From the NCBI GenBank assembly GCA_001798185.1, contig MGRM01000028.1, positions 62,001 to 126,000 on the forward strand: a stretch of DNA of 64,000 nucleotides, given 5' to 3'. Position 1 is the stretch's first letter, and each line of letters opens with the position of its first letter. Under the pieces are notes generated by a model. It ran no database searches and was not told the DNA's origin. It saw only the letters and a program-made list of their open reading frames with translations. Shown here one piece after another: positions 4,884 through 32,654 of this stretch. The position numbers were made by a program, and so were the translations under genes. This stretch comes from Deltaproteobacteria bacterium RIFCSPHIGHO2_02_FULL_44_16 (lineage in GTDB: Bacteria; UBA10199; 2-02-FULL-44-16).

Positions 4884-6299
4884 TTATTTCCTATCTCGTG
4901 CCTTTCGTACGTCATCGGGGGTGACCACTCCTCCCTTGTTTTTCCAGGTGTTGAGAACATACGTTACAATATTCGCAATGTCTTCATCTGTAAGATTCAG
5001 TTTGGGCATGACACTGTTATAGGTGACACCGTTCACGATAATCTCTCCCTGCAATCCATTGGCAATGGCGCGAATCGCTTGGGCGACATTTCCGTTAAGA
5101 TAACTTGAAGCGGCAAGGGGTGGAAAGGCTCCTGGAATTCCCTGCCCTTCGGGTTGGTGGCATGAAGCACAGTTTTGTTTAAACCCAATTTCTCCTGCCT
5201 TGATGCGTTCTGCTTTGGTGAGTGCAACTGGTGGTGGCGCTGGTTTTTCATCAGGAATTGTTTGGATCGCCCCCCCTTCAGCAAGATAGACCTGCTCTTC
5301 TTCTTTTCCCGAATAGATGGTTTTGTTCTCATTGCCTGTGACTTTGAGCCAACCGATAGCTCCTTTGTTGAAGGCGCGAAAAATGGAATGATCGACAAGA
5401 ATGAAATTTCCGGGAACTTCTACTTTAAATTCGACAATCGCTGAGCCGCCTGCGGGAATAAGCGTTGTTTGCACATTGTGGTTGAGTGTGTCTCCCCCTT
5501 CGATGGAAACATTGTCAAAAATTTCGCCGATGACGTGAAATGATGAGATAAGATTTGGTCCACCATTGCCAACATAGAGACGAACTGTTTCACCAACGTT
5601 TGCGGTAAGCCCCTTGTCTCCGACAAGAGATCCGACGGATCCATTAAAAATGACATATTCCGGATGTTCATCAATGGCTTTTGCCATATCAAAAGGTTGC
5701 AGTCCCCCTTCGCCGTGTCGACCTTTGGTATAAAAATCCCCTTGCATGACATAGTATTCACGATCGACCTTGGGGAGTCCTTCTTTTGGTTCAACAAGAA
5801 TCAAGCCATACATACCGTTTGCGATATGCATTCCAACTGGCGCTGTGGCGCAGTGGTAGACGTACAATCCGGGATTAAGAACTTGAAATGAGAAAACTGT
5901 TTCATGGCCAGGAGGTGTAAATGATGAAGTTGCTCCACCGCCTGGTCCTGTCACGGCATGCAAATCGATATTGTGAGGCATTTTGTTGTCAGGATGATTG
6001 CGAAGATGGAATTCAACAAAATCTCCTTCACGCACGCGAATGAAACTTCCGGGAACAGTTCCTCCAAAAGTCCAAAAAGTATAATCAACTCCTTCCGCAA
6101 TTTTCCCAATCTGTTCTTTGACTTCAAGTTTGACCATTACCTTGGCACTCTGTTTTCGAGTGATGGGAGGAGGGACCATGGGAGGTGCGGTAAGAACTGC
6201 TTCCTCTCCTTGAGACGTTGTTTGCTCTGAATTTTTTTGGGAAGAGCAGCCGGTGACAAGAAGAAAGCAGACAGTGGAAAAGCAGAAAATTTTTTTCAT
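4884..6299 (-). CDS. nirK: Copper nitrite reductase NirK with C-terminal cytochrome c domain, lipoprotein
   Basis: Reduces nitrite to nitric oxide in the periplasm. The 471-residue protein starts with a lipobox (LLVTGC, Cys18), so it is likely membrane-anchored. Two cupredoxin domains follow. Type-1 copper ligands are His109, Cys150, His158 and Met163. Type-2 ligands are His114, His149 and His304. The catalytic pair is Asp112 and His255. After a Pro-rich linker at about 350-358, a cytochrome c domain carries CASCH at 377-381 and a later Met-Pro. This fused form lets electrons pass from the heme to type-1 copper within one chain. The start overlaps the nnrS stop by 4 bp (ATGA). The frame is open upstream but that part is nnrS in another frame. 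Confidence 0.95.
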
Positions 6300-7474
6300 A
6301 GATTCCCCTTTTGAAAGATTTTTTTTAAAAATTCTTTTTGCCATACAAGTACTCCTATAATCCACACACTCGCCGCGTATGCAAGATGTTGAAAATAATG
6401 TTGAGTCCACGGCGCTGTGAGGCGGGTCGCAAGAGCGATTATCAAGAGAAAGAACGTGAAAACGAGCGTATATGAATGTCGTTCCTGTTTTAAACCATGA
6501 TTGCCGTGAGACAGGACGACACGTGTTGCGATGGCAAAGATCATGATGGAAAGCGAGCCAACAAAAAGAAGATGAGCGGCATGTATCCGGTAGGAAGGAA
6601 AGAAAGTCATGAGCCAAGTTCCCGCGATCATGCACCAACTGGCGATCCAGAGTGCAAGGCTCACATATGTTTTTGAAACAGGGATGCGACCAAGTTGCCA
6701 CCACAAAAGAAGATAGAGAGTAATGATGACGCTTCTGATGGTGGTTGCAAAGAGAACAATTCCATAAGCTTCGAGAACAAAACTGAGAAAGAGAACAAGA
6801 GAAAAAAGAAAAAAGATTTTTCTTTCTCGCGCATCTTGAGAGGTTGGTGCAAAGGGAGATCCTGCATGTGGCGTGTTTGGTGATATGCAATTGCAACCGG
6901 TGATGTAGGGAATAAGCCGACTTCCAATTCCCAAGGCAAAATTTAGAAAAACTCCATACCAGAGAAGAAGCTGTGCAAAACGGAGCAATGTCGCAGGCAT
7001 GATGAGGAAATCGTTGGAAAGAATAAGTGCTGTTCCAAGAAGTGCAGAAACCATTCCTCCTCCGACAAAAACGAAACTTGAAGGGATTTTCATGGATGCT
7101 TTTTGCACGCGACGAAGCAGAAAGAGTGTGAGGGCGAGAATGTGAAGAAAACTTATGATATGGAATGGAATGCGTATGGGCTGAAGCGAGGCGATAATTA
7201 TCAGGGTTGTGGTGATAAGAAAAAAAATCTTTTCTTTTGTCGTTGCGGAGGATGTGGATGAAAATTTGGGAACCGCGGTTACCAGGAAACCAGTGGCAAT
7301 CACAAAGAAAAAACCTTGCATCATGATTTCAGCGTGAATGGATCCCGGATAAGAAAATTTTCCAAAGGCGAATGCAATCCAGACGCTTGTTCCAATGAGT
7401 CCGAGCAGCATGCCAAGTGGAAAGAAAATTTGATAAGGCGCCAGTGTTTCTAGGTGATGACGGTTTTTGAACAT
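6296..7474 (-). CDS. nnrS: NnrS family heme/copper membrane protein
   Basis: A 392-residue polytopic membrane protein with about twelve hydrophobic segments. NnrS-family features are the opening [43 protein letters not shown], and [11 protein letters not shown]. NnrS proteins are heme-copper membrane proteins linked to nitric oxide exposure and denitrification; their exact biochemistry is debated. It overlaps mobA by 25 bp upstream and nirK by 4 bp downstream, so it is translationally coupled within the Moco-denitrification operon. Confidence 0.9.
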
Positions 7475-12788: not shown

Positions 12789-13142
12789 ATGAGGAAGAAA
12801 CTTTTTTTGATGTGGATGCCAGTCGTGATTATGATGTCATCGTCTGCGTTTGCGGCAGCGGATGCCAATGCGGGAAAAATAAAATATCAGCAACTTTGTG
12901 TCAGTTGTCACGGAGCGTCGGGCAAAGGAGATGGTCCGGCTGCTGTGGCGCTCACTCCTAAACCGCGCAATTTTTCCGACAGCAAAGGGAAAACTGATGC
13001 GCAACTTGCGAAAGTGATTAAAGAAGGGGGAGCAGCCAATAATCTCTCGCCTTTGATGCCACCTTGGGGCGCAGGTCTCACTGACCAGGATATTGCAAAT
13101 ATCATCGCCTATCTTCGCGTTCTCGGGAAAGGTGGTCAATAA
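12789..13142 (+). CDS. Periplasmic c-type cytochrome, first gene of the nxr/nar operon
   Basis: A 117-residue class I cytochrome c: signal peptide to about residue 24 ([10 protein letters not shown]), then CVSCH at 37-41 and a Met in SPLMPPWG as likely sixth heme ligand. The motif [16 protein letters not shown] and the closing [15 protein letters not shown] are typical of small electron carriers. The ATG at 12789 has GGAGG six bases upstream; an upstream ATG in frame at 12726 is rejected. Its stop overlaps the nxrA-like start by one base (TAATG), so it probably carries electrons to or from the molybdoenzyme. Confidence 0.92.
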
Positions 13143-16100
13143 TGCTACGCGATATCTCGCGACGCAGTTTTCTGAAACTGGCGCTTACCACGGGAGCGGG
13201 ATTTTCACTTGCAAGCGCAACTTCTGTTTCGGAAATGTTCACCTTTCTGATTCCGTTTGATCACGACAATCCTCTTTCGGGTTACCCCAATCGCGATTGG
13301 GAAGAGCAGTATCGGGATCTTTTTCGCTCTGATTCCACATTTCATTTTCTCTGCGCGCCAAATGATACGCACAACTGTTTGCTGACAACCTATGTGAAAA
13401 ACGGTGTTGCGACCCGCATTGGCCCATCTTTCGGATACGGCAAGGCAACCGATATCTATGGCAATCGGTCATCGCATCGATGGGATCCACGCTGCTGTCA
13501 AAAGGGGCTTGCTCTTATTCGGCGTTTTTATGGAGATCGCCGGTGTAAAGAACCGATGGTGCGAAAAGGTTTTCTCGATTGGGTGACCTCGGATTTTGAA
13601 CGCGATCCGGCAACAGGCGCCGTCCCAAAAAAATATCTCAATCGTGGATTGGATGATTGGGTGAAAGTTTCCTGGGAGAAAGCGTTTGATCTTTCTGCGC
13701 GAACGCTTCGCAATATTGCTGAAACGTATCAGGGAGAAAAAGGGAAGCAGTATCTTCTCGCTCAAGGTTATGATCCTGCGATGGTGGAGGCGACGAAAGG
13801 CATTGGAACGCAAGTGCTCAAATTTCGTGGTGGAATGGCAGCGCTTGGCGCCACACGACTTTTTGCCCAGTATCGACTTGCCAACATGATGGCGCTTCTT
13901 GATGCAAAGATTCGCGGGGTCTCTCCGGACGAAGCTGTTGGTGGACGTGGCTGGGATAACTACAGTTGGCACACCGATCTTCCTCCAGGCCATCCGATGG
14001 TGACAGGACAACAAACCGTCGAGTGGGACCTGGTCAATGCCGAACAGGCACATGTGATTGTTTGTTGGGGGATGAACTGGATTACCACAAAGATGCCCGA
14101 TGCGCACTGGTTGACGGAAGCGCGGATGAAGGGGGCAAAGGTTATTGTGATTGCTGCGGAGTATAGCGCCACATCATCAAAAGCCGATATGGTCGTTGTC
14201 GTTCGTCCGGGGACGACCCCCGCGCTTGCGTTTGGACTCTGTCATCTTCTTCTCAAGCAGAAGGCGTACAACCCTGAATATCTTCGCGAACATACGGATC
14301 TTCCCTGTCTTGTTCGTATGGATACCCTTGAAATGCTCAAGGCAACCGAGGTGTGGAAGGAATACACGAATAGTCCTCTCGATAATTATGCAACGACACT
14401 CAAAAAAGGAGAAAAACCTCCACTTCCGCCGCTTCAAAAGGAACCTCTTATTACCGATGAAGACCGCGAAACATGGGGTGATGCTGTGGTGTGGGATGAG
14501 AGAACGAAAAAACCGGTTGTGCTTTCGCGTAACGATTATGGCTCGCGTTATCGAAACAAGGGGATCACAGCGACGCTCCGGGGGCGATATCAGGTGACAC
14601 TCGCTGATGGAAAGAATATTTTTGTACGACCAGTCTTTGATCTTCTCACAGAATATGTTGACGCTAACTTCGATCCGAAAACGGTTTCTGAAATCACCTG
14701 GGCTCCGGTTGAAGCGTTGTATGCGCTTGCAAAGGAGTTGGCGCAACATCGTGGAAAAACTCTTTTCGCTTTGGGCATGGGGCCGAATCAGTTTTTTAAT
14801 AGCGACCTCAAAGATCGTGCAACATTTTTTCTGGCAGCGCTTACCGAAAATATCGGGAAAGCCGGTGGCAATATTGGAAGCTATGCGGGGAATTATCGTG
14901 CAGCGTTCTTCAGTGGTCTTGGTCAGTTTATTCAGGAAGATCCATTCAACGTCACGTTGAACCAGAATGATCCGGCGAAAGTGAAAGGCTATTTCACGAA
15001 TGAGTCTGTCCATTACTTTAATCATGGCGATACGATTCTTCGCATGGGAAAAGAAATTTTGACGGGAACGTCGCATATGCCGACTCCGACAAAATCGATT
15101 CTCGTCTCAAACAGCAACTCGCTCATTGGAAATGCCAAGGGTCATTATGACACCGTCGTTAACATTTTGCCTCGCGTCGAATTTGTTGGGGTGAATGAAT
15201 GGTGGTGGACGGCGTCGTGTGAATACGCCGACATTGTTTTTCCGGTCGACAGTTGGGCGGAATTCAAACAACCTGACATGACGATTTCGGTCACGAATCC
15301 GTTTCTTTATGTCTATCCTGCAACGCCGCTGAAACGCATTTATAATACACGCGGAGATATTGAAGTGGCCGCCGGCATTGCAAATGCCTTTGCGGATATC
15401 ATGGATGACAGACGTTATCGTGATTATTGGCGTTTTGTGCATGAAGGAAAAACAGAAATCTATCTTCAGCGTATTCTCGATTTCAGTAATGCGACAAAAG
15501 GGTATAACATTCATGAGCTTCATGAAAAAGCAAAGCAGGGGATTCCCGCACTCCTCATGTCACGCACCTATCCGAAAGTGGGAGCGTGGGAACAGGCAAA
15601 CGAAGACAAACCTTATTATACAAAGACCGGGCGGCTTGAATTCTATCGACCCGAACAAGAATTTATTCATTCAGGTGAAAATATTCCAGTTCATCGCGAA
15701 CCAATTGACTCAACGTTCTATGAACCAAATGTGATTGTGGCAAAACCACATGAAGCTATTCGTCCAAAACGCCCCGAAGATTATGGTGTCTCCTCGTCTC
15801 GCCTTGAAGCCGATGCTCGTCAAGCGCGGCATGTGGTGAAACCATGGAGTGAAGTTGCGACGACGCAGCATCCTCTTCAAAAAGATGGTTACAGTTTTAT
15901 CTTTCATACTCCCAAATATCGACACGGCGCGCACACCACTCCAGTTGATACTGATATCATCGCGGTCTGGTTTGGTCCGTATGGCGACATGCATCGCGAA
16001 GACAAACGCATGCCTTTTGTGAGCGAAGCTTATGTCGATATCAACCCTCACGATGCGAAAATGCTCGGGATTGAAGATGGTGATTATGTTCATATTGATG

Positions 16101-16612
16101 CCGATCCACATGATCGACCTTATCGCGGGTGGAAGAAGAGTGATAAGGCCTATGAGATATCGCGCTTGCTCTGCCGCGCCAGATATTATCCGGGGACACC
16201 CCGCGGTGTGACGCGCATGTGGCACAACATGTATGGCGCGACCTATGGCAGTGTGCGTGGCGCACAAACGCGCGAAGATGGTCTCGCGAAAAATCCGGAT
16301 ACCGGGTATCAAGCTCTTTTCCGCACAGGGTCGCAACAAAGTTGCACACGAGGCTGGATCAAACCGACATGGATGACCGACTCTCTCGTACGCAAGGATC
16401 TCATCGGACAAAAAATTGGAAAAGGATTTGCGCCCGATGTGCATTGTCCCACAGGCGCGCCTCGCGAGGCTTTTGTGAAAATCACCAAAGCTGAAGCCGG
16501 GGGTATGCATGGAGAGCCGTGGCGACCGCTCACGCTTGGCATTCGCCCATCATACGAGGACAAGCGGATGAAAAACTATATCAAGGGAAGAAACATTAAG
16601 GTGAAAGGATAA
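13142..16612 (+). CDS. nxrA: Nitrite oxidoreductase/nitrate reductase alpha subunit, periplasmic NxrA type (type II DMSO reductase family)
   Basis: A 1156-residue molybdoenzyme catalytic subunit. A twin-arginine signal ([12 protein letters not shown] at 7-8) predicts export with folded cofactor, unlike cytoplasmic NarG. The FS0 cluster region reads C71-x3-D75-x3-C79 with C118 in [11 protein letters not shown]; an Asp replaces the second Cys, as known for the Nitrospira/anammox Nxr type. The molybdenum-ligand Asp is Asp272 in [16 protein letters not shown]. The C-terminal MopB domain ends with [14 protein letters not shown]. The enzyme class interconverts nitrate and nitrite. Context (NirK, NnrS, Moco genes) favours nitrate reduction feeding NirK, but oxidation cannot be excluded. 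Confidence 0.88.
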
Positions 16613-16617
16613 CCATT

Positions 16618-17745
16618 ATGGCAGACGTGAACAACTGGCAGCTCGGACGAAGTATGGCTTATCCTTACGCTGAGGCACGGCCAAAGCGGCAGCTTGCGTA
16701 TGTGTTTGACACGAACAAATGCATCGCCTGCCAAACCTGTACGGTTGCGTGCAAGACGACGTGGACATCAGGAAAAGGACAGGAGAACATGTTTTGGAAT
16801 AATGTCGAAACAAAACCTTATGGCGGTTATCCCACCGCATGGGATGTGAAACTTCTGGATGAACTCGGTGGTCAGGAGTGGGAAGGGAAAACCTATAAAG
16901 GAAAAACCGTTTTTGAAGATGCTCCTCCGGGAGAACGGGTGAAAGGTTATTTGCCGGAGCATGAAGACTATGCGCATCCGAATTTAGGCGAAGATGAAAT
17001 TTCCGGTACGTTGAACAAAGGGACTTTTTTTTCAGGCATGCATCAGGCCTGGATGTTTTATCTCGCACGCATTTGCAATCATTGTACCTATCCCGCGTGC
17101 CTTGCGGCTTGTCCACGCAAGGCGATTTACAAACGCGAGGAAGACGGTGTCGTGCTGATCGATCAGGTGAGGTGTCGTGGATATAAAGAATGTGTGAAAG
17201 CGTGTCCTTACAAGAAAACTTTTTTTAATATGATCACGCGCACATCGGAAAAATGCATTGGCTGTTATCCGCTCCTGGAAAAAGGAGAACAACCGCGATG
17301 CGTGCAAACCTGCATCGGCAAGATTCGCATTCAAGGATGGCTTTCAAAGCCAGGTGAAGAGCGTGAAGACAACCCGCTCGATTATATCGTGAGAATCAAA
17401 AAAGTGGCACTCCCTCTTTATCCACAATATGGACTGGAACCAAATGTGTATTACATTCCGCCGGTCAATGTGCCGAGGGAGTTTCTTCTCCAGATGTTTG
17501 GTCCCTTTGTGGATGATGCGATTGCTACCTATCGACATGTGAAAACCGATAAAAAACTTCTCGCGGCATTTCTTCTTTTTGGGAACACGCCAAAAATTAT
17601 TACCAAATACGATGCAAATGATCATGAGGCCATTGGTTATAATGAACAGGGCGAAGAGGTGGTTCGGGTTCCATTGACGGAACCTTTTTTTGAGCGCGAT
17701 CTCTTTGATCCTCAACATAATGTTTACCGCCATAACACGCCATAG
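16618..17745 (+). CDS. nxrB: Nitrite oxidoreductase/nitrate reductase beta subunit, NxrB type
   Basis: A 375-residue ferredoxin-like subunit carrying four iron-sulfur clusters between the Mo subunit and the gamma subunit. Cys clusters are seen in order: CIACQTCTVAC near residue 36, CNHCTYPACLAACPRKAIY, CRGYKECVKACPYKK, and CIGCYPLLEKGEQPRCVQTCIGK. The last set has the spacing of NarH-type proteins. It has no signal peptide of its own and is expected to ride out with NxrA by hitch-hiking on the Tat signal. It starts 5 bp after nxrA, with AAGG eight bases upstream. Shorter than NarH (about 500), as in the Nxr group. Confidence 0.9.
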   Translation: MADVNNWQLGRSMAYPYAEARPKRQLAYVFDTNKCIACQTCTVACKTTWTSGKGQENMFWNNVETKPYGGYPTAWDVKLLDELGGQEWEGKTYKGKTVFEDAPPGERVKGYLPEHEDYAHPNLGEDEISGTLNKGTFFSGMHQAWMFYLARICNHCTYPACLAACPRKAIYKREEDGVVLIDQVRCRGYKECVKACPYKKTFFNMITRTSEKCIGCYPLLEKGEQPRCVQTCIGKIRIQGWLSKPGEEREDNPLDYIVRIKKVALPLYPQYGLEPNVYYIPPVNVPREFLLQMFGPFVDDAIATYRHVKTDKKLLAAFLLFGNTPKIITKYDANDHEAIGYNEQGEEVVRVPLTEPFFERDLFDPQHNVYRHNTP

Positions 17746-17754
17746 GAGGTTCGT

Positions 17755-18570
17755 ATGAAGTGGTTGGGGTTTCTGGTTGTCTCTTTTTTTACTCTCATGT
17801 CGGCGCATGCGGAAGAAATTCGTTCGGTTTATGTTGAACAAGATGATCAATTTTTTCAAACTTCTGATCCTCTTTCGCAGGTTTGGAGCGATGTCCACGA
17901 AACAAAGGTGATGCTTTTCCCGCAGAATATTGCAACCCCGGGAATGATGACAGGAAGTGTGATGCATGCTCACGTGAAAACAGTGCACAATGACACATGG
18001 TTTGCGGTGAGGCTTGAGTGGAAGGATGCGACGCGCGATGTTCACCTTGAAACCGATCTTTCTTCTGATGCCTGCGCTGTGCAACTGCCGCTCAAGAGTG
18101 TTGAAAAAACCTCGCCGTTTATGGGAAATAAAAATCAACAGGTGGCAATTTTACACTGGAAAGCTCTTTGGCAAGAAGACATTGAAAAGGGATATCAAGA
18201 GGTCAAGGATCTCTACCCCAACACATGGACCGATACCGATCGATTTGGAAAATCTGTTGCTATTGACGCAAAGAATCCCGTTGCGCTGCAGAAGAGAAAA
18301 GTGCCGGTCGAAGAACTTCTTGCCGAAGGTTTTGGAACATTAACAACACAGAAAAAACAAAATGCCCTTGGGCGAGGCGTGTGGAAAGATGGCGCCTGGC
18401 ATGTTGTTTTTGTTCGCAAATTGAAAACGGGTGACAAACAGGATCCGATACTTAAAAGCGGAATTCCGACATCACTCGGGTTTGCTGTTTGGGATGGATC
18501 ACATGATGATCGGGGAGGACGTAAAAACTATGCTCCATGGATTGCTCTTACACTCGAGGGGAAAAAATGA
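17755..18570 (+). CDS. Heme-b gamma subunit of type II molybdoenzyme (ethylbenzene dehydrogenase-like, NxrC/DdhC type)
   Basis: A 271-residue exported protein with a Sec signal peptide (MKWLGFLVVSFFTLMSAHA) and the beta-rich fold of the EBDH-related heme-b-binding family. Recognisable parts are QVWSDVHETKVMLFPQ, DTWFAVRLEWKDATRD near residue 85, GRGVWKDGAWHVVFVRKL, and LGFAVWDGSHDDRGGRK at the end. In this family a Met and a Lys bind one heme b that passes electrons to or from the beta subunit; I cannot fix those residues by eye. An AGGAGG precedes the start. The position after nxrB and before the chaperone is the usual order. Confidence 0.85.
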   Translation: MKWLGFLVVSFFTLMSAHAEEIRSVYVEQDDQFFQTSDPLSQVWSDVHETKVMLFPQNIATPGMMTGSVMHAHVKTVHNDTWFAVRLEWKDATRDVHLETDLSSDACAVQLPLKSVEKTSPFMGNKNQQVAILHWKALWQEDIEKGYQEVKDLYPNTWTDTDRFGKSVAIDAKNPVALQKRKVPVEELLAEGFGTLTTQKKQNALGRGVWKDGAWHVVFVRKLKTGDKQDPILKSGIPTSLGFAVWDGSHDDRGGRKNYAPWIALTLEGKK

Positions 18571-19247
18571 ACCACCAAAAAGATATCTATCACTTGTATC
18601 TTGCATCTGATCTTTATCGACTCCTTGCGCTTGCCTTTGATGCGCCATCCAAGCAACAGTTCGAGACGATTGAGACTCTTCTTGATGATATCGGACACGA
18701 GGTCCATCAGCCAGACATTGCTCAATGTTTACAGGACCTTCAACGTGCAGCAAAAGCAGAATCTGCAACTGTAGAAGCTGAATACAACCGGCTCTTTGTC
18801 AATCAGGTGCTTTGTCCGCCGTGCGAAGGGAGTTATCATCTCGCGGAACGAGGACCAATTCTTGGAGATATCACCGCATTCTATCGCGCTTTTTCTCTCG
18901 AGACTGTAGAGCAGCAGGGACCTCCCGATTCCATACGCATGGAGCTTGGGTATATGAGTTTCATGGCGCTCAAAAGAATAAGCGCTCTTGAGGGTCGTGA
19001 TGATGACGCTGCTGACATTACCAAGGTTGCAACGATGCGTTTTCTGATGGATCATCTCGGACGCTGGGGATTTCTTTTTGCTGATCGTCTCTTGGCGTCG
19101 ACCACGCATATGTTTTATCAAACATCTGCAAAACTTTTAAAAGTATGGTTTGAATGCGAAATGAAATTCTATGATCTTTCACCACATCCTTTGCCCCTAA
19201 AACTTTTGTCGTTTGAAGATGAGGAAAGTGTTCAATGTCATTTGTAA
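18567..19247 (+). CDS. NarJ/TorD-type molybdoenzyme chaperone
   Basis: A 226-residue all-helical protein of the TorD/DmsD/NarJ superfamily. Such proteins bind the Tat signal or apo-enzyme and hold it until cofactor loading. Visible are YHLYLASDLYRLLALAFDAP at the start, VEAEYNRLFVNQVLCPPCEGSY, and the D-H-L-G-R-W-G-F-L-F-A-D segment near residue 165, which resembles the family E(Q)PxDH and helix motifs. The start overlaps the gamma-subunit stop (ATGA). It ends within the porin gene start (13-bp overlap). Confidence 0.87.
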   Translation: MNHQKDIYHLYLASDLYRLLALAFDAPSKQQFETIETLLDDIGHEVHQPDIAQCLQDLQRAAKAESATVEAEYNRLFVNQVLCPPCEGSYHLAERGPILGDITAFYRAFSLETVEQQGPPDSIRMELGYMSFMALKRISALEGRDDDAADITKVATMRFLMDHLGRWGFLFADRLLASTTHMFYQTSAKLLKVWFECEMKFYDLSPHPLPLKLLSFEDEESVQCHL

Positions 19248-25829: not shown

Positions 25830-27350
25830 ATGAACGACCCAAAAATCAAAAAACTTTATCGCCAATGCTATGAGCAGATGCGGACCATTGCGATCCTTGG
25901 TGACACACAACAACTTCTCGGCTGGGATCGTGAAACCATGATGCCCAAAAAAGGGGCTGCCAATCGTGCCGAACAAATGGCGGTCATGACAGCTCTTCTT
26001 CATGAACGCGCCACCGCGCCAGAGATTGGAGAAACGCTTCAGACTTTAAATGCAGCGACGAATACACTTTCAAGTGGAGAGCGTGCCAACGTGCGCGAAT
26101 GGTTGCGCGACTATGAAAAAATAGTAAAAATTCCAAAAGCATTAGCCACTGAAATTTCACGTACGACATCTCGTGCACACGATGTTTGGATTGAAGCGCG
26201 GCAGAAAAAAGATTTTTCTCTCTTTGCTCCATGGCTCTCTAAAATTATCAAACTCTCGACAGAAAGAGCAGAAGCTATTGGATACACTGGCTCACGTTAT
26301 AATGCTCTTCTCGATGGATTCGAACCATACATGACAGTGGATGAGCTCGATCCGATTTTGGATGATGTTCGTCGTCACACTCTTTCTTTTCTCGAAGCTA
26401 TTTGTCATTCCACGATAAAAGCGAAGACTTCATTTCTACATAAACGTTATCCTATTCCACAGCAGGAAGCTGTCAGTCGCATGATTATGGAGCGAATTGG
26501 ACTGACATCAGATGGGACTCGTCTTGATCGAGCTGTCCATCCATTTTGCAGCGGAGCACATCCTGATGATGTTCGTATGACGACACGGTATTCTGAAATA
26601 AACTTCCCACAGTCGATATCGACGGTCATGCACGAAGGGGGACATGCGATCTATCAACAGCAGCTCGATATTCAGCATTTTGGAACCCCCCTTGCTGATC
26701 CTATCTCGCTTGGTATTCACGAATCGCAATCCCGCACATGGGAACATTTAGTTGGGAGCAGTTGGGCTTTCACTTCGTTTCTGTTTCCGAAATTGAAAAA
26801 ACTTTTCCCGCAGCAACTTCAATATGTGAAGGCGCGTGATTATTATAAAGCTGTCAATTCAGTACAGCCGAGTTTCATTCGTGTTGATTCCGATGAAGTG
26901 ACGTACAATCTCCACATTGTGCTTCGTTATGAACTTGAACGAGGATTATTTGAAGGAAAGATAAAGGTGAAAGATTTGCCAGCGCTCTGGAATGAAAAGA
27001 TGAAAAAATATTTAGGTATTATTCCTCACAATGATGCTCTTGGGGTTCTTCAAGATACGCACTGGTCCTGGGGAGCTTTTGGATATTTCCCAACCTATAC
27101 GCTTGGGAATCTGTATGCTGCACAATTTTGGACAAAAATTCAGAAGGATCTTCCAGATATTGAAGATCAGATACGCAAAGGAAAGTTTCAACCTTTGCGC
27201 GAATGGCTTCGTAAAAACATTCACACGCACGGGCGTCGTTATAGTGCAAGTGAACTGGTGAAGCGTGTGACGGGGAAGCCGTTGTCATCGCAATATTTTG
27301 TTGATTACATCAAAAAGAAGTACGGTGAGATTTATGACATCTCTTTGTAG
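25830..27350 (+). CDS. Carboxypeptidase Taq-type metallopeptidase (M32)
   Basis: A 506-residue zinc carboxypeptidase of family M32. The HEGGH motif (VMHEGGHAIYQQQL) gives the two zinc His and catalytic Glu, followed by GIHESQSRTWEH with the third ligand Glu. Other family segments are LGWDRETMMPKKGAANRAEQ, VHPFCSGAHPDDVRMTTRY and DEVTYNLHIVLRYELE. Full length, cytoplasmic. Its TAG stop is the first triplet of the left arm of repeat copy C. Confidence 0.95.
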   Translation: MNDPKIKKLYRQCYEQMRTIAILGDTQQLLGWDRETMMPKKGAANRAEQMAVMTALLHERATAPEIGETLQTLNAATNTLSSGERANVREWLRDYEKIVKIPKALATEISRTTSRAHDVWIEARQKKDFSLFAPWLSKIIKLSTERAEAIGYTGSRYNALLDGFEPYMTVDELDPILDDVRRHTLSFLEAICHSTIKAKTSFLHKRYPIPQQEAVSRMIMERIGLTSDGTRLDRAVHPFCSGAHPDDVRMTTRYSEINFPQSISTVMHEGGHAIYQQQLDIQHFGTPLADPISLGIHESQSRTWEHLVGSSWAFTSFLFPKLKKLFPQQLQYVKARDYYKAVNSVQPSFIRVDSDEVTYNLHIVLRYELERGLFEGKIKVKDLPALWNEKMKKYLGIIPHNDALGVLQDTHWSWGAFGYFPTYTLGNLYAAQFWTKIQKDLPDIEDQIRKGKFQPLREWLRKNIHTHGRRYSASELVKRVTGKPLSSQYFVDYIKKKYGEIYDISL

Positions 27351-27483
27351 AGTTCATTTCAAAACATTACTCTTTGTAACGGGTCCTGCCGCTTGCGGTG
27401 TTCTGGTCTCCCGCATAACACGGGAACCCTCCAGAACAACCTCCAGCGTCACCCGTATCTCATCAGTTTTGAAATGAACTCTA
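27348..27483. repeat. Palindromic element, copy C (between M32 peptidase and transketolase)
   Basis: Perfect 18-bp inverted arms at 27348-27365 and 27466-27483 with inner TTTCAAAAC and private outer TAGAGTTCA. The left arm contains the peptidase stop codon. The core runs in the opposite sense to copies A and B: CGGGTCCTGCCGCTTGCGG first, GCGTCACCCG last. Confidence 0.88.
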
Positions 27484-27499
27484 CTGAAGGGCTTTCACG

Positions 27500-29540: not shown

Positions 29541-30059
29541 ATGCACAAATGTCCAAGTGTGAAGTGTTTTTTTACCGAGTGTGACTGCTGGTGCAAAATG
29601 TCATGCGTGCTCGGAAGTTTTGTTCTTTTGTTGTTGCGTCTCTATTTTGGTTGGCATTTCTTGATGGCAGGGAAAGGGAAGTTTATGAATACAGAACAAG
29701 TGACGGGATTTTTTACCAATCTCGCCATTCCTTTTCCTCACATTATGGTCTACGTCGTTGCTGCCATTGAAATGATTGGCGGAGCTTTTTTATTGATCGG
29801 TTTAGCTGCCCGTTTCGTTTCAATTCCTTTATCAGTGACGATGATTGTCGCATTTTTTACGGCACATCTGGAAGCCGTGAAAAATATCTTCAAAGATCCT
29901 GAAACTTTTTTTGCGCAGGATCCATTTCTCTTTTTACTGACGACACTTTTGGTTCTCTCTTTTGGGCCGGGAATGTTTTCCATCGATTATGTGATCAAAA
30001 AGAAATGTTGCCAGAGTGATGTCGGTTCTTCAGGAACAAAAACAAGTTGTTGTTCATAA
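29541..30059 (+). CDS. DoxX-family membrane protein, HvfX/BufD-like, linked to bufferin locus
   Basis: A 172-residue membrane protein with four helices and the DoxX pattern LLLRLYFGWHFLMAGKGKF, NLAIPFPHIMVYVVAAIEMIGGAFLLIGLAARFVSIPLS. It has Cys clusters at both ends (CPSVKCFFTECDCWCKMSC at the N-terminus and KKKCCQ...TSCCS at the C-terminus), unusual for plain DoxX and suggestive of metal or thiol chemistry. A GGGGG purine tract precedes the ATG. It lies 65 bp before the precursor gene, as DoxX proteins do in several DUF692 RiPP clusters. Confidence 0.83.
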   Translation: MHKCPSVKCFFTECDCWCKMSCVLGSFVLLLLRLYFGWHFLMAGKGKFMNTEQVTGFFTNLAIPFPHIMVYVVAAIEMIGGAFLLIGLAARFVSIPLSVTMIVAFFTAHLEAVKNIFKDPETFFAQDPFLFLLTTLLVLSFGPGMFSIDYVIKKKCCQSDVGSSGTKTSCCS

Positions 30060-30124
30060 CAGTTCGTTTCTGTTTGTGTCATGGTGATGCAGGGAAGCAG
30101 AACTGATGTGCTTGTGGGGGATTC

Positions 30125-30397
30125 ATGAAGCGATCATATAAAGGTGCAGTAGTTGCAGCAGCAGTGGCAGGTTTTTTCTTCGCGGGAAAAGCAATTGCGG
30201 ATAACACCCAACCAACGACAACAGCAAAAACAGAAACCACCGCAAAGGTAAAATGTTTCGGGGTCAATGAATGTAAAGGTCATAGCGAATGCGCAGGCGC
30301 AAAAAATGGATGTCATGGACAAAATGGATGCAAAGGGCAGGGTTGGGAAATGATGAAAAAAGAAGATTGTGTAAAAAAGGGTGGAACAGTTAAGTAA
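30125..30397 (+). CDS. bufA: BufA2-like bufferin precursor peptide (periplasmic Cys-rich metallophore)
   Basis: A 90-residue exported peptide: basic start, hydrophobic core and AIA cleavage site at about residue 25. A Thr-rich spacer follows, then six Cys at positions 44, 50, 56, 63, 69 and 82. They lie in repeated C-x-G-type units (NECKG, GCHGQNGCKGQGW). Bufferins are ribosomal peptides whose cysteines are turned into thiooxazoles by DUF692 MNIO enzymes, giving copper-binding metallophores. The neighbouring DUF692 and DUF2063 genes support this. The Cys pattern and the closing W-x4-K-x2-C-x3-GG fit the BufA2 group. Confidence 0.85.
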   Translation: MKRSYKGAVVAAAVAGFFFAGKAIADNTQPTTTAKTETTAKVKCFGVNECKGHSECAGAKNGCHGQNGCKGQGWEMMKKEDCVKKGGTVK

Positions 30398-30404
30398 GGA
30401 ACAA

Positions 30405-31265
30405 ATGGAATTTCCTTTTTTAGGTTTTGGCGTCGGCCTCCGGACCACGCATTATAGTCATATCTTGGAACACTGGCCTCAAATCGATTGGTTTGAGATC
30501 ATTTCCGAAAACTATATGGTGGACGGAGGCCGACCTCTTTATATCCTCGAACAAGTTCAAGAACGCTATCCGCTGGTCATGCATGGAGTTTCACTTTCGA
30601 TCGGCTCAACAGATCCGCTGAATAAAGATTATCTGAAACGTCTCAAAAAACTGGCAGATGTGGTGAAACCAAAATGGATTTCAGATCATCTCTGTTTTGC
30701 GTGCACTGGCGGGCATAATTCTCATGATCTCTTGCCACTGCCTTATACCGAAGAAGCAATTACGCATGTGGCAAAACGGATTCAACAAGTCCAAGATCAT
30801 CTGGGGTGTCAGATGCTTCTCGAAAATGTTTCGAGCTATATGGAATACAAGCATTCCACGATGAGTGAGTGGGAATTTTTAAAAGCGATTGTGGAAGAAG
30901 CAGATTGTAAAACGCTTCTGGATATTAATAATATTTATGTGAGTTCTGTGAATCATTCTTTTGATCCGATGAAGTTTATCTCTGCGATTCCACCAGATCG
31001 CGTCAAACAGTTTCATTTAGCAGGACATACGGAATATGAAACGCACTTGCTCGATACCCATGATCACGAAATTAAATCTGAAGTGTGGAAGCTCTACACC
31101 AAAGCGCTTGAACGTTTTGGAAATATTTCAACGCTCATTGAGTGGGATGATCATATTCCTCCCTTTGAAGAGTTGAAATCGTCCGCAGATAAAGCAAAAA
31201 AACTTTATGAAGCCTATGCACACGCTCGAACAAACACAGAAACTGGTGTGGCAGCTCATCTCTGA
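30405..31265 (+). CDS. bufB: MNIO-family bufferin maturase (DUF692, BufB)
   Basis: A 286-residue TIM-barrel multinuclear non-heme iron oxygenase. Family motifs are GFGVGLRTTHYSHILE, DWFEIISENYM, the HGVSLSIGS segment with a metal His, WISDHLCFA, LLPLPYTEEA, MLLENVSSYMEY, LLDINNIYVSSVNHSFDP, FHLAGH and LLDTHDHEI, and IEWDDHIPPFEEL. These supply the His, Asp and Glu iron ligands of DUF692. It should modify the Cys of the peptide encoded 7 bp upstream. The ATG at 30405 has AAGGA four bases upstream and is preferred over an in-frame GTG at 30381. Confidence 0.92.
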   Translation: MEFPFLGFGVGLRTTHYSHILEHWPQIDWFEIISENYMVDGGRPLYILEQVQERYPLVMHGVSLSIGSTDPLNKDYLKRLKKLADVVKPKWISDHLCFACTGGHNSHDLLPLPYTEEAITHVAKRIQQVQDHLGCQMLLENVSSYMEYKHSTMSEWEFLKAIVEEADCKTLLDINNIYVSSVNHSFDPMKFISAIPPDRVKQFHLAGHTEYETHLLDTHDHEIKSEVWKLYTKALERFGNISTLIEWDDHIPPFEELKSSADKAKKLYEAYAHARTNTETGVAAHL

Positions 31266-32058
31266 TCCTCATGGCGTTCAAGCTGCAATACGAAAGCTTG
31301 CTTTATGCGAGCTTCCCATTCAGGGTGATCACCGTTTAAGCGCTGAGGAGCGGCTCGATATTTATGCGCAGATGTATTTTTTTCGTCTGCTCAATTGCCT
31401 TCAAGAAGATTTTCCAGCTGTGAGAGCATTTCTTGGCTCTGAATCTTTTGCGCATGTGGTGGCGAATTATGTTGGAAGCTTTCCATCAGAACACTGGTCG
31501 CTTCGTTATGCAGGTGCAAGACTTCCCGATTTTTTGAAGAGTACGGAATATCATCAGATATCGCCTTTTCTTTCTGATCTTGCTCGTTTTGAATGGCAAC
31601 TTTTAGATGTGATCGATGCTCCTGATGCAAAACTTCTTTCGCAAAATCGCTTGGCAGAAATTTCTCCTGAGATGTGGGAGAAAATAAAATTTTCTCTTCT
31701 TCCTTCATGTCGTCTTCTTTCTCTTTCATGGGAGACGGCGCCTCTTTACGAAGGGCTGCGCCCCTCTCTGGGGAGTACAGTAGAAAAAGAAGAAATCATG
31801 ACTCCAGTAAAACAAGAAGTGACGTATCTCATATGGCGTCCTCAGTTTGACGTGAAATATCGTGTGGTTGACGGTCTTGAGCATGAACTCCTCGCGCTCC
31901 TTCACAATGGGGTGACGTTTGGGGAACTCTGTGAAAAAGCATATGACGCTCTTGGGAATGTTGGAGTGACCAACACTGCGCAACTATTGCAAGGCTGGAT
32001 TAAAGATGGTTTGTTAACGAACCTTGATGAAGCGTTCTATTTCAAAACTGACAAATGA
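31207..32058 (+). CDS. bufC: DUF2063 peptide-modification partner (HvfC/BufC family)
   Basis: A 283-residue protein: N-terminal DUF2063 domain (ALCELPIQGDHRLSAEERLDIYAQMYFFRLLNCLQEDFPAVRAFLG, then HVVANYVGSFPSEHWSLRYAG) and a C-terminal region that resembles a RiPP recognition-type domain. It works with the DUF692 oxygenase to bind the precursor. It overlaps bufB by 59 bp; the second ATG at 31216 is an equally likely start. Its last codons (FYFK) form the left arm of repeat copy D. Confidence 0.88.
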   Translation: MKPMHTLEQTQKLVWQLISDPHGVQAAIRKLALCELPIQGDHRLSAEERLDIYAQMYFFRLLNCLQEDFPAVRAFLGSESFAHVVANYVGSFPSEHWSLRYAGARLPDFLKSTEYHQISPFLSDLARFEWQLLDVIDAPDAKLLSQNRLAEISPEMWEKIKFSLLPSCRLLSLSWETAPLYEGLRPSLGSTVEKEEIMTPVKQEVTYLIWRPQFDVKYRVVDGLEHELLALLHNGVTFGELCEKAYDALGNVGVTNTAQLLQGWIKDGLLTNLDEAFYFKTDK

Positions 32059-32162
32059 TTGGGGTGGCACCGACGACGGATCCCAGGGGTGCCCCGCGTT
32101 AGCGGGGAGGTGGAACGTCGGAGGTGACAGGACCCGTATCAGAAAATGTTTTGAAATAGAAC
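32034..32162. repeat. Palindromic element, copy D (end of bufC)
   Basis: Perfect 15-bp arms at 32034-32048 and 32148-32162; inner TTTCAAAAC, outer private GTTCTA lying in the bufC coding end. Right half of the core matches copies A and B (GTGACAGGACCCGTA), while the left half has diverged. Confidence 0.8.
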
Positions 32163-32178
32163 TCTTATAACAAGTTTA

Positions 32179-32234: not shown

Positions 32235-32654
32235 ATGTTTGCAGCTTCAGGTTGTGGTTCGTGTGGTTGTCACTCTGCGGAGGAGACACCAAAAGTAGAG
32301 CAAAAAGAGACAGCACCTCTTGAGGGCGGAACGCTTACGATTACCGCAAAAGCGGGTGAAAAGGTGAAAGGCTTCATGGATCAAATGCCAGGAGCCCAGG
32401 GAAAATTGTTGCGCATTGCGATTCGTGCAGGTGGCTGTTCAGGCTATTCCTATGATTTTGTTTTTGATGCGAAACGCGAAGGGGATCAAGAATTCCCAGC
32501 TGGCGATGTTTCTGTCATTGTTGATTCCATGAGCATGAAGCTTTTAAATGGAAGCACCATTGATTATCTTGAAACCATGCAGGGTGCTGGTTTTGTGGTC
32601 GAAAATCCAAACTCGAGCGGTGGCTGTGGTTGCGGTTCATCTTTTTCAGCTTAA
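32235..32654 (+). CDS. A-type iron-sulfur carrier (IscA/ErpA/HesB family) with extra N-terminal Cys cluster
   Basis: A 139-residue protein. Residues from about 33 form the HesB-like domain, with the three conserved Cys in GGCSGYSYDF and the C-terminal GGCGCGSSF. It binds and delivers Fe-S clusters. The N-terminus carries an extra GCGSCGCHSAEE segment not usual in IscA. A GGAG six bases before the ATG, a promoter and a terminator make it a single-gene unit. It may serve the many cluster proteins here, such as NxrB and MoaA; that link is inference. Confidence 0.9.
   Translation: MFAASGCGSCGCHSAEETPKVEQKETAPLEGGTLTITAKAGEKVKGFMDQMPGAQGKLLRIAIRAGGCSGYSYDFVFDAKREGDQEFPAGDVSVIVDSMSMKLLNGSTIDYLETMQGAGFVVENPNSSGGCGCGSSFSA

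Follow-up and report, generated by a model that had tools for sequence, protein, structure and literature searches.

A canonical Buf2-type bufferin cassette and a separable DoxX gene with cysteine-rich tails in a poorly known uncultured phylum

Introduction

Thousands of bufferins have been published, and their clusters share the gene order bufABC, a Sec signal and six conserved cysteines (PMC12452194). In characterised bufferins and in oxazolin, cysteines are converted into 5-thiooxazoles by a mixed-valent diiron MNIO enzyme with O2 (PMC12452194, PMC13097082, PMC13419390), a group common to MNIO-PME1 products (PMC13097082). The outer cysteines of Buf1 are held in a disulphide, its central cysteines are modified, and the thiooxazoles chelate copper; for Buf2 bufferins, whose published members have 6 or 12 cysteines, only a mass loss per cysteine, as in Buf1, and a band at 305 nm have been reported (PMC12452194). 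The doxX gene is listed among the bufferin core genes, and HvfX has been called uncharacterised (PMC12452194, PMC13419390).

Here we describe a bufABC locus in the genome (1.98 Mb, 29 contigs) of an uncultured 'Deltaproteobacteria'-type bacterium. The locus is of a known kind and constitutes a new Buf2 member in a sparsely sampled lineage. It shares with the Buf2 bufferins of Caulobacter vibrioides and Legionella (BufA2, Buf_6/12Cys) the gene order, the Sec signal, the six-cysteine spacing and the pairing of BufB with a PME-type 1 partner, and its proteins score above the cut-offs of the curated models for BufA2 and BufB. It differs from them in its host, a member of a poorly known uncultured phylum, and in the position of doxX, which lies 5' of bufA and can be separated from the cassette; some relatives, moreover, carry 7-8 cysteines through extra six-residue units.

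The locus also resembles HvfABCX (oxazolin, Haemophilus) and other captophorins in combining an MNIO enzyme, an RRE partner and a DoxX-like protein, and 5-thiooxazole chemistry is likely. Identity with the HvfABC oxazolin cluster was nevertheless rejected, because the HvfB (275 of 360) and HvfC (51 of 142) models stay under their cut-offs and EGKCG repeats are absent from the BufA2 precursor, and an HvfX-type DoxX was rejected on a near miss (NF050144, 77.8 bits against a cut-off of 80, with only positions 3-92 of 165 matched). With methanobactin MbnABC and pearlin TglAHI the locus has in common the MNIO family and its metal-site residues, and the BufC model resembles TglI; unlike MbnABC, it has a Sec-type precursor and a DUF2063 partner in place of MbnC, and a methanobactin cluster was rejected on the MbnB model (71.9 bits, cut-off 325). 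BufB is likewise below the cut-offs of the ApyH and ChrH models. With this locus, the known range of bufferins comes to include a little-known lineage of uncultured bacteria carrying copper nitrite reductase. The informative findings are a cassette indel, a separable DoxX with cysteine tails and, as a side observation, the repeat precursors found behind a sister MNIO clade.

Results and Discussion

The bufABC cassette

Coordinates are positions in the window, the whole 64,000-nt stretch of DNA that was analysed. A sequence-only reading had placed four plus-strand open reading frames at 29541-32058, and all four were located there, followed by a fifth gene of relevance here:

29541-30059, plus strand: doxX, 172 aa, four-TM DoxX protein with 10 Cys; resident neighbour of bufABC and possible accessory (HvfX-like)
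30125-30397, plus strand: bufA2, 90 aa, bufferin precursor (NF050166, 81.7 bits)
30405-31265, plus strand: bufB, 286 aa, MNIO (DUF692) bufferin maturase (NF050167, 384 bits)
31207-32058, plus strand: bufC, 283 aa, DUF2063 + RRE partner protein of PME-type 1 (PF09836, 61.3 bits)
32235-32654, plus strand: ErpA-like A-type Fe-S carrier (TIGR00049, 105 bits)

The bufABC genes (30125-32058) lie on one strand in the canonical Buf2 order, with 7 bases between bufA2 and bufB and an overlap of 59 bases between bufB and bufC; gaps of 46 and 65 bases separate doxX from tkt and from bufA2, respectively, and all reading frames of bufABC and doxX are intact. A profile search for DUF692, DUF2063 and BufA, which the same reading had proposed, returned the families far above chance (PF05114 376, PF09836 61 and NF050166 81.7 bits). 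Its identification of a bufferin-type locus is borne out by the BufA2 and BufB models, the intact metal site, the fold of the RRE partner, the signal peptide and the shared six-cysteine spacing. Gene identity, gene order, metal-site conservation, the partner fold (as a model) and the cassette indel are established directly by the analysis. Between 29300 and 32700 there were 0 matches to Rfam families, and a scan around the locus for sigma-70 promoters (copper-responsive or other) and terminators remained at chance level.

The precursor exceeds the cut-off of 60 bits of the NF050166 model ('BufA2 family periplasmic bufferin-type metallophore') and carries its six core cysteines exactly where they had been read (C44, C50, C56, C63, C69 and C82), in a spacing of 6, 6, 7, 6 and 13. 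Its signal peptide, MKRSYKGAVVAAAVAGFFFAGKAIA-DN, judged by eye on the translation, comprises KR, a hydrophobic stretch and an AIA cut site, and both the signal peptide and the cysteine spacing are common to its homologues. Variants of the precursor occur in the phylum: one in genome G029 (L033:4703-4978) has seven cysteines all spaced by 6 (CKAKDKCKGKDGC...) and falls under the BufA2 cut-off (19.8 of 60 bits), and another in G013 (L006:2334-2651) reaches eight cysteines via two extra six-residue units.

BufB, encoded by the sole MNIO gene of the genome, passes NF050167 ('MNIO family bufferin maturase', cut-off 310 bits). Missing DUF692 iron ligands would have told against the bufferin reading, but all nine metal-site positions (H60, H95, E140, D173, N175, H204, D217, H219 and E246) are invariant across 36 aligned MNIO homologues and sit within the matched motifs of 3bww (E 2.6e-53) and TglH. 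In our own reading of the alignment, N175, D217 and H219 correspond to N175, D242 and H244 of HvfB, residues essential in HvfB, with inactive alanine variants (PMC13419390).

The gene directly 3' of the MNIO gene encodes, as had been proposed, a DUF2063 protein (PF09836, cut-off 27.2 bits). The BufC sequence gave no meaningful match among solved structures, and fold comparison was therefore needed. An AlphaFold model built with 16 homologues (mean pLDDT 90.2, confident to about residue 270) matches TglI in the TglHI complex (8hci, E 6e-7) and NGO1945 of Neisseria (3dee, E 1.7e-6), which serves as type example of a DUF2063 + RRE partner, and its C-terminal part shows a weak likeness to RREs that bind leaders, 5v1u among them (prob. 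0.54). On the modelled fold, BufC is a predicted RRE-bearing DUF2063 partner.

A dispersed repeat element at 32030-32166 overlaps the 3' end of bufC by 29 bases, and the final codons of the gene come from it, an overlap that might be read as a cassette in decay, or one whose precursor stays unmodified. Given that the reading frames are intact, that the metal site is kept, and that the BufC model is confident to about residue 270, the tail beyond residue 277 being of low confidence anyway, either is very improbable. The element has a second copy in the window at 27347-27484; each copy spans about 137 bp and bears inverted-repeat arms of 19 nt, whose sequence varies from one copy to the other and yet remains complementary within each. 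The 78-nt core of the 32030-32166 copy has 24 matches in the genome, and the two copies overlap the stop codons of bufC and of a peptidase M32 gene. The element looks MITE- or REP-like.

A cassette indel and the spread of bufABC in the phylum

In a sample of 46 genomes of the phylum, BufB passes the cut-off in 10, and an eleventh (G035) has a BufB fragment where a contig ends. Nine further genomes keep the order bufA-bufB-bufC, one of them with a divergent precursor; a BufA2 above cut-off precedes BufB in 9 of the 10, the precursor of G029 being the repeat variant under cut-off. The closest named BufB records, at 58-66% identity, come from metagenome-assembled genomes of uncultured 'Deltaproteobacteria'.

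Genome G002, from another genus of the same family, carries at locus L072 the arrangement tkt-doxX-erpA-pabA-pabB-pabC-btuF-like, which matches the window gene by gene (34-76% identity) and lacks bufABC between doxX and erpA. Neither BufA2 nor BufB was found elsewhere in this genome, which is 81% complete. Since the erpA gene directly follows doxX there (69% identical to the window's 32235-32654), the ErpA-like gene marks the right edge of the cassette; and since the same stretch exists without bufABC, doxX is to be regarded as resident and bufABC as a separate cassette, in a clean indel. The suggestion of one compact four-gene unit holds for bufABC, in canonical order, and is unsupported for the membership of doxX. 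On these comparisons, bufABC was gained or lost beside an older resident doxX. A horizontal origin by composition was rejected for want of a signal (GC 0.42-0.45 against 0.447 for the window); gain and loss are indistinguishable, because composition is uniform and the BufB tree places the window's gene within the phylum without resolution at the relevant nodes. That one stretch of chromosome occurs both with bufABC and without it, doxX being present in either case, amounts to a natural experiment that separates the question of DoxX/HvfX-type proteins from the bufferin cassette itself. As a separate observation, the ErpA-like carrier has an extra cysteine-rich N-terminus (CGSCGCH), which in the G002 orthologue reads CGSCCGGGHSHSH.

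DoxX proteins with cysteine tails

The DoxX protein (PF07681, 70.3 bits) does have the cysteine-rich ends that had been noticed, with ten cysteines, six in an N-terminal tail (4, 9, 14, 16, 18 and 22) and four in a C-terminal tail (156, 157, 170 and 171). Both tails should face the cytoplasm, judging from hydropathy and from the positive-inside rule, with KKK at the C-terminal end and Arg between helices 2 and 3. The tails had been thought unusual, but they are a trait of the clade and nothing special to this locus. The DoxX of G002, sister to that of the window (98/94 support), has the same two tails and 10 cysteines. No close plasmid copy of the cysteine-tailed DoxX was found. In G003, likewise from this family, bufABC stands among pur genes and a cysteine-tailed doxX (13 Cys) on another contig, where it adjoins a DCC1-like thiol-disulphide oxidoreductase (L073:4841-5891), a pairing that hints at a thiol redox role.

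It could be argued that doxX and bufABC form a four-gene functional unit, in which DoxX is essential, for instance with its cytoplasmic cysteine tails binding Cu(I) or trading electrons or disulphides with BufA2 prior to its export or in the course of it. The literature counts DoxX as a core gene of bufferin clusters (PMC12452194), doxX lies directly 5' of bufA in the window and in G029, and the doxX type (defined by E below 1e-34) is found in 10 of the 11 BufB genomes, the G035 fragment included, against 6 of 35 others of the phylum (Fisher p 1.8e-5, kinship ignored). Yet the two genes abut in these two genomes only and are apart in the other eight that have both, the DoxX of G029 is not sister to that of the window in the tree, and G002 keeps the same cysteine-tailed doxX at the same place without bufABC, all of which makes an essential DoxX rather unlikely. 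Because the doxX type and BufB co-occur even when unlinked, a functional link is still plausible, and one without physical linkage is possible, in agreement with the listing of doxX as a core gene. A more specific version, in which the cysteine-tailed DoxX acts as a location-independent bufferin partner whose cytoplasmic tails would hand BufA2 either Cu(I) or redox equivalents during its modification and export, is a long shot; if true, a metal- or thiol-handling DoxX would provide a function for DoxX/HvfX proteins, so far unexplained members of bufferin clusters.

Copper setting and proposed function

The host had been described as a cell using NirK and SCO, and both are indeed encoded in the window, SCO as a SCO1/SenC protein and NirK as follows:

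4884-6896, minus strand: NirK, fused at its C-terminus to a cytochrome c domain (TIGR02376, 352 bits, cut-off 296); the listed reading frame is too long at the N-terminus

Together with this NirK-cytochrome c and SCO, the genome encodes a single COX1-family oxidase and a single Cu P-type ATPase, and envelope copper must therefore be handled. Of the 6 genomes with a strict NirK, 4 have BufB, as do 7 of the other 40 (p 0.02, kinship ignored), an association that is suggestive at best. Strict NirK is missing from 7 of the 11 BufB genomes, and NirK was thus rejected as the reason for the locus, being neither necessary nor sufficient for it in the phylum. Elsewhere in the window (13142-19247, plus strand) lies a Tat-signal molybdopterin oxidoreductase with an Fe-S subunit, an EB_dh-type haem subunit and a TorD-like chaperone. 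Type II DMSO reductases are its closest group, but it reaches 293 of a curated score of 985, less than one third, and so counts as a divergent member.

A copper role for the window's bufferin is suggested by its homology to characterised bufferins. The bufferin might instead serve another thiophilic metal, or oxidative or sulphur stress: bufferin fusions to MerC and gold-induced gig operons point to other metals, DoxX homologues have been tied to oxidative or sulphur stress (PMC12452194), and no copper-responsive promoter or regulator was identified at or beside bufABC. Against this, the bufferins and captophorins whose characterisation is described in PMC13097082 and PMC12452194 bind copper, and NirK, SCO and a haem-copper oxidase are all encoded by the host, so that we regard a role other than copper as improbable.

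The reading that we favour, and hold to be very probably correct as a whole, is that of a canonical Buf2 cassette in which BufA2 is oxidised by BufB and chelates periplasmic copper, with a DoxX that is not obligate; we infer its chemistry, export, metal and physiological role by analogy. BufA2 would be made as a Sec precursor, its Sec signal doubling as leader, and BufC, through its DUF2063 and RRE parts, would hold the signal/leader part and present the precursor to BufB. Using O2 and a diiron centre of mixed valence, BufB would turn some BufA2 cysteines into 5-thiooxazole or an isomeric group, most likely, by analogy with Buf1, the central C50, C56, C63 and C69, and C44 and C82 may pair as a disulphide like the outer cysteines of Buf1. 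Leaving via Sec, the modified peptide would then chelate periplasmic copper and, under copper excess, shield both the cell and its copper enzymes (NirK, haem-copper oxidase) as these mature. The adjacent cysteine-tailed DoxX may help through a membrane redox or a cytoplasmic thiol/metal role.

Probable precursors with repeats, beside a sister MNIO clade

In the phylum, a sister clade of MNIO enzymes scores 280-304 with the BufB model, just below the cut-off of 310, and is represented by seven loci (L012 in G044, L013 in G018, L014 in G022, L015 in G014, L016 in G032, L017 in G037 and L018 in G041). The reading frame just 5' of the MNIO gene in these loci encodes a protein of 128-198 aa whose start is Lys-rich and signal-like. 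The proteins contain repeats, (KKCSGD)n for example, with a unit of about six residues, and 6-12 cysteines in total, and most of them also have an FFQTAELxVGYRxA-like motif and a CGAGSCG-like end. None of the NCBIfam and Pfam models tested gave them a convincing match. The gene after the MNIO gene encodes a DUF2063 + NGO1945_C partner (domain test on L016), and two of the loci continue with a gene for an ECF-like sigma factor. The (KKCSGD)n proteins are probably an undescribed family of captophorin-like precursors, and they are of more interest than the bufferin set of the window itself.
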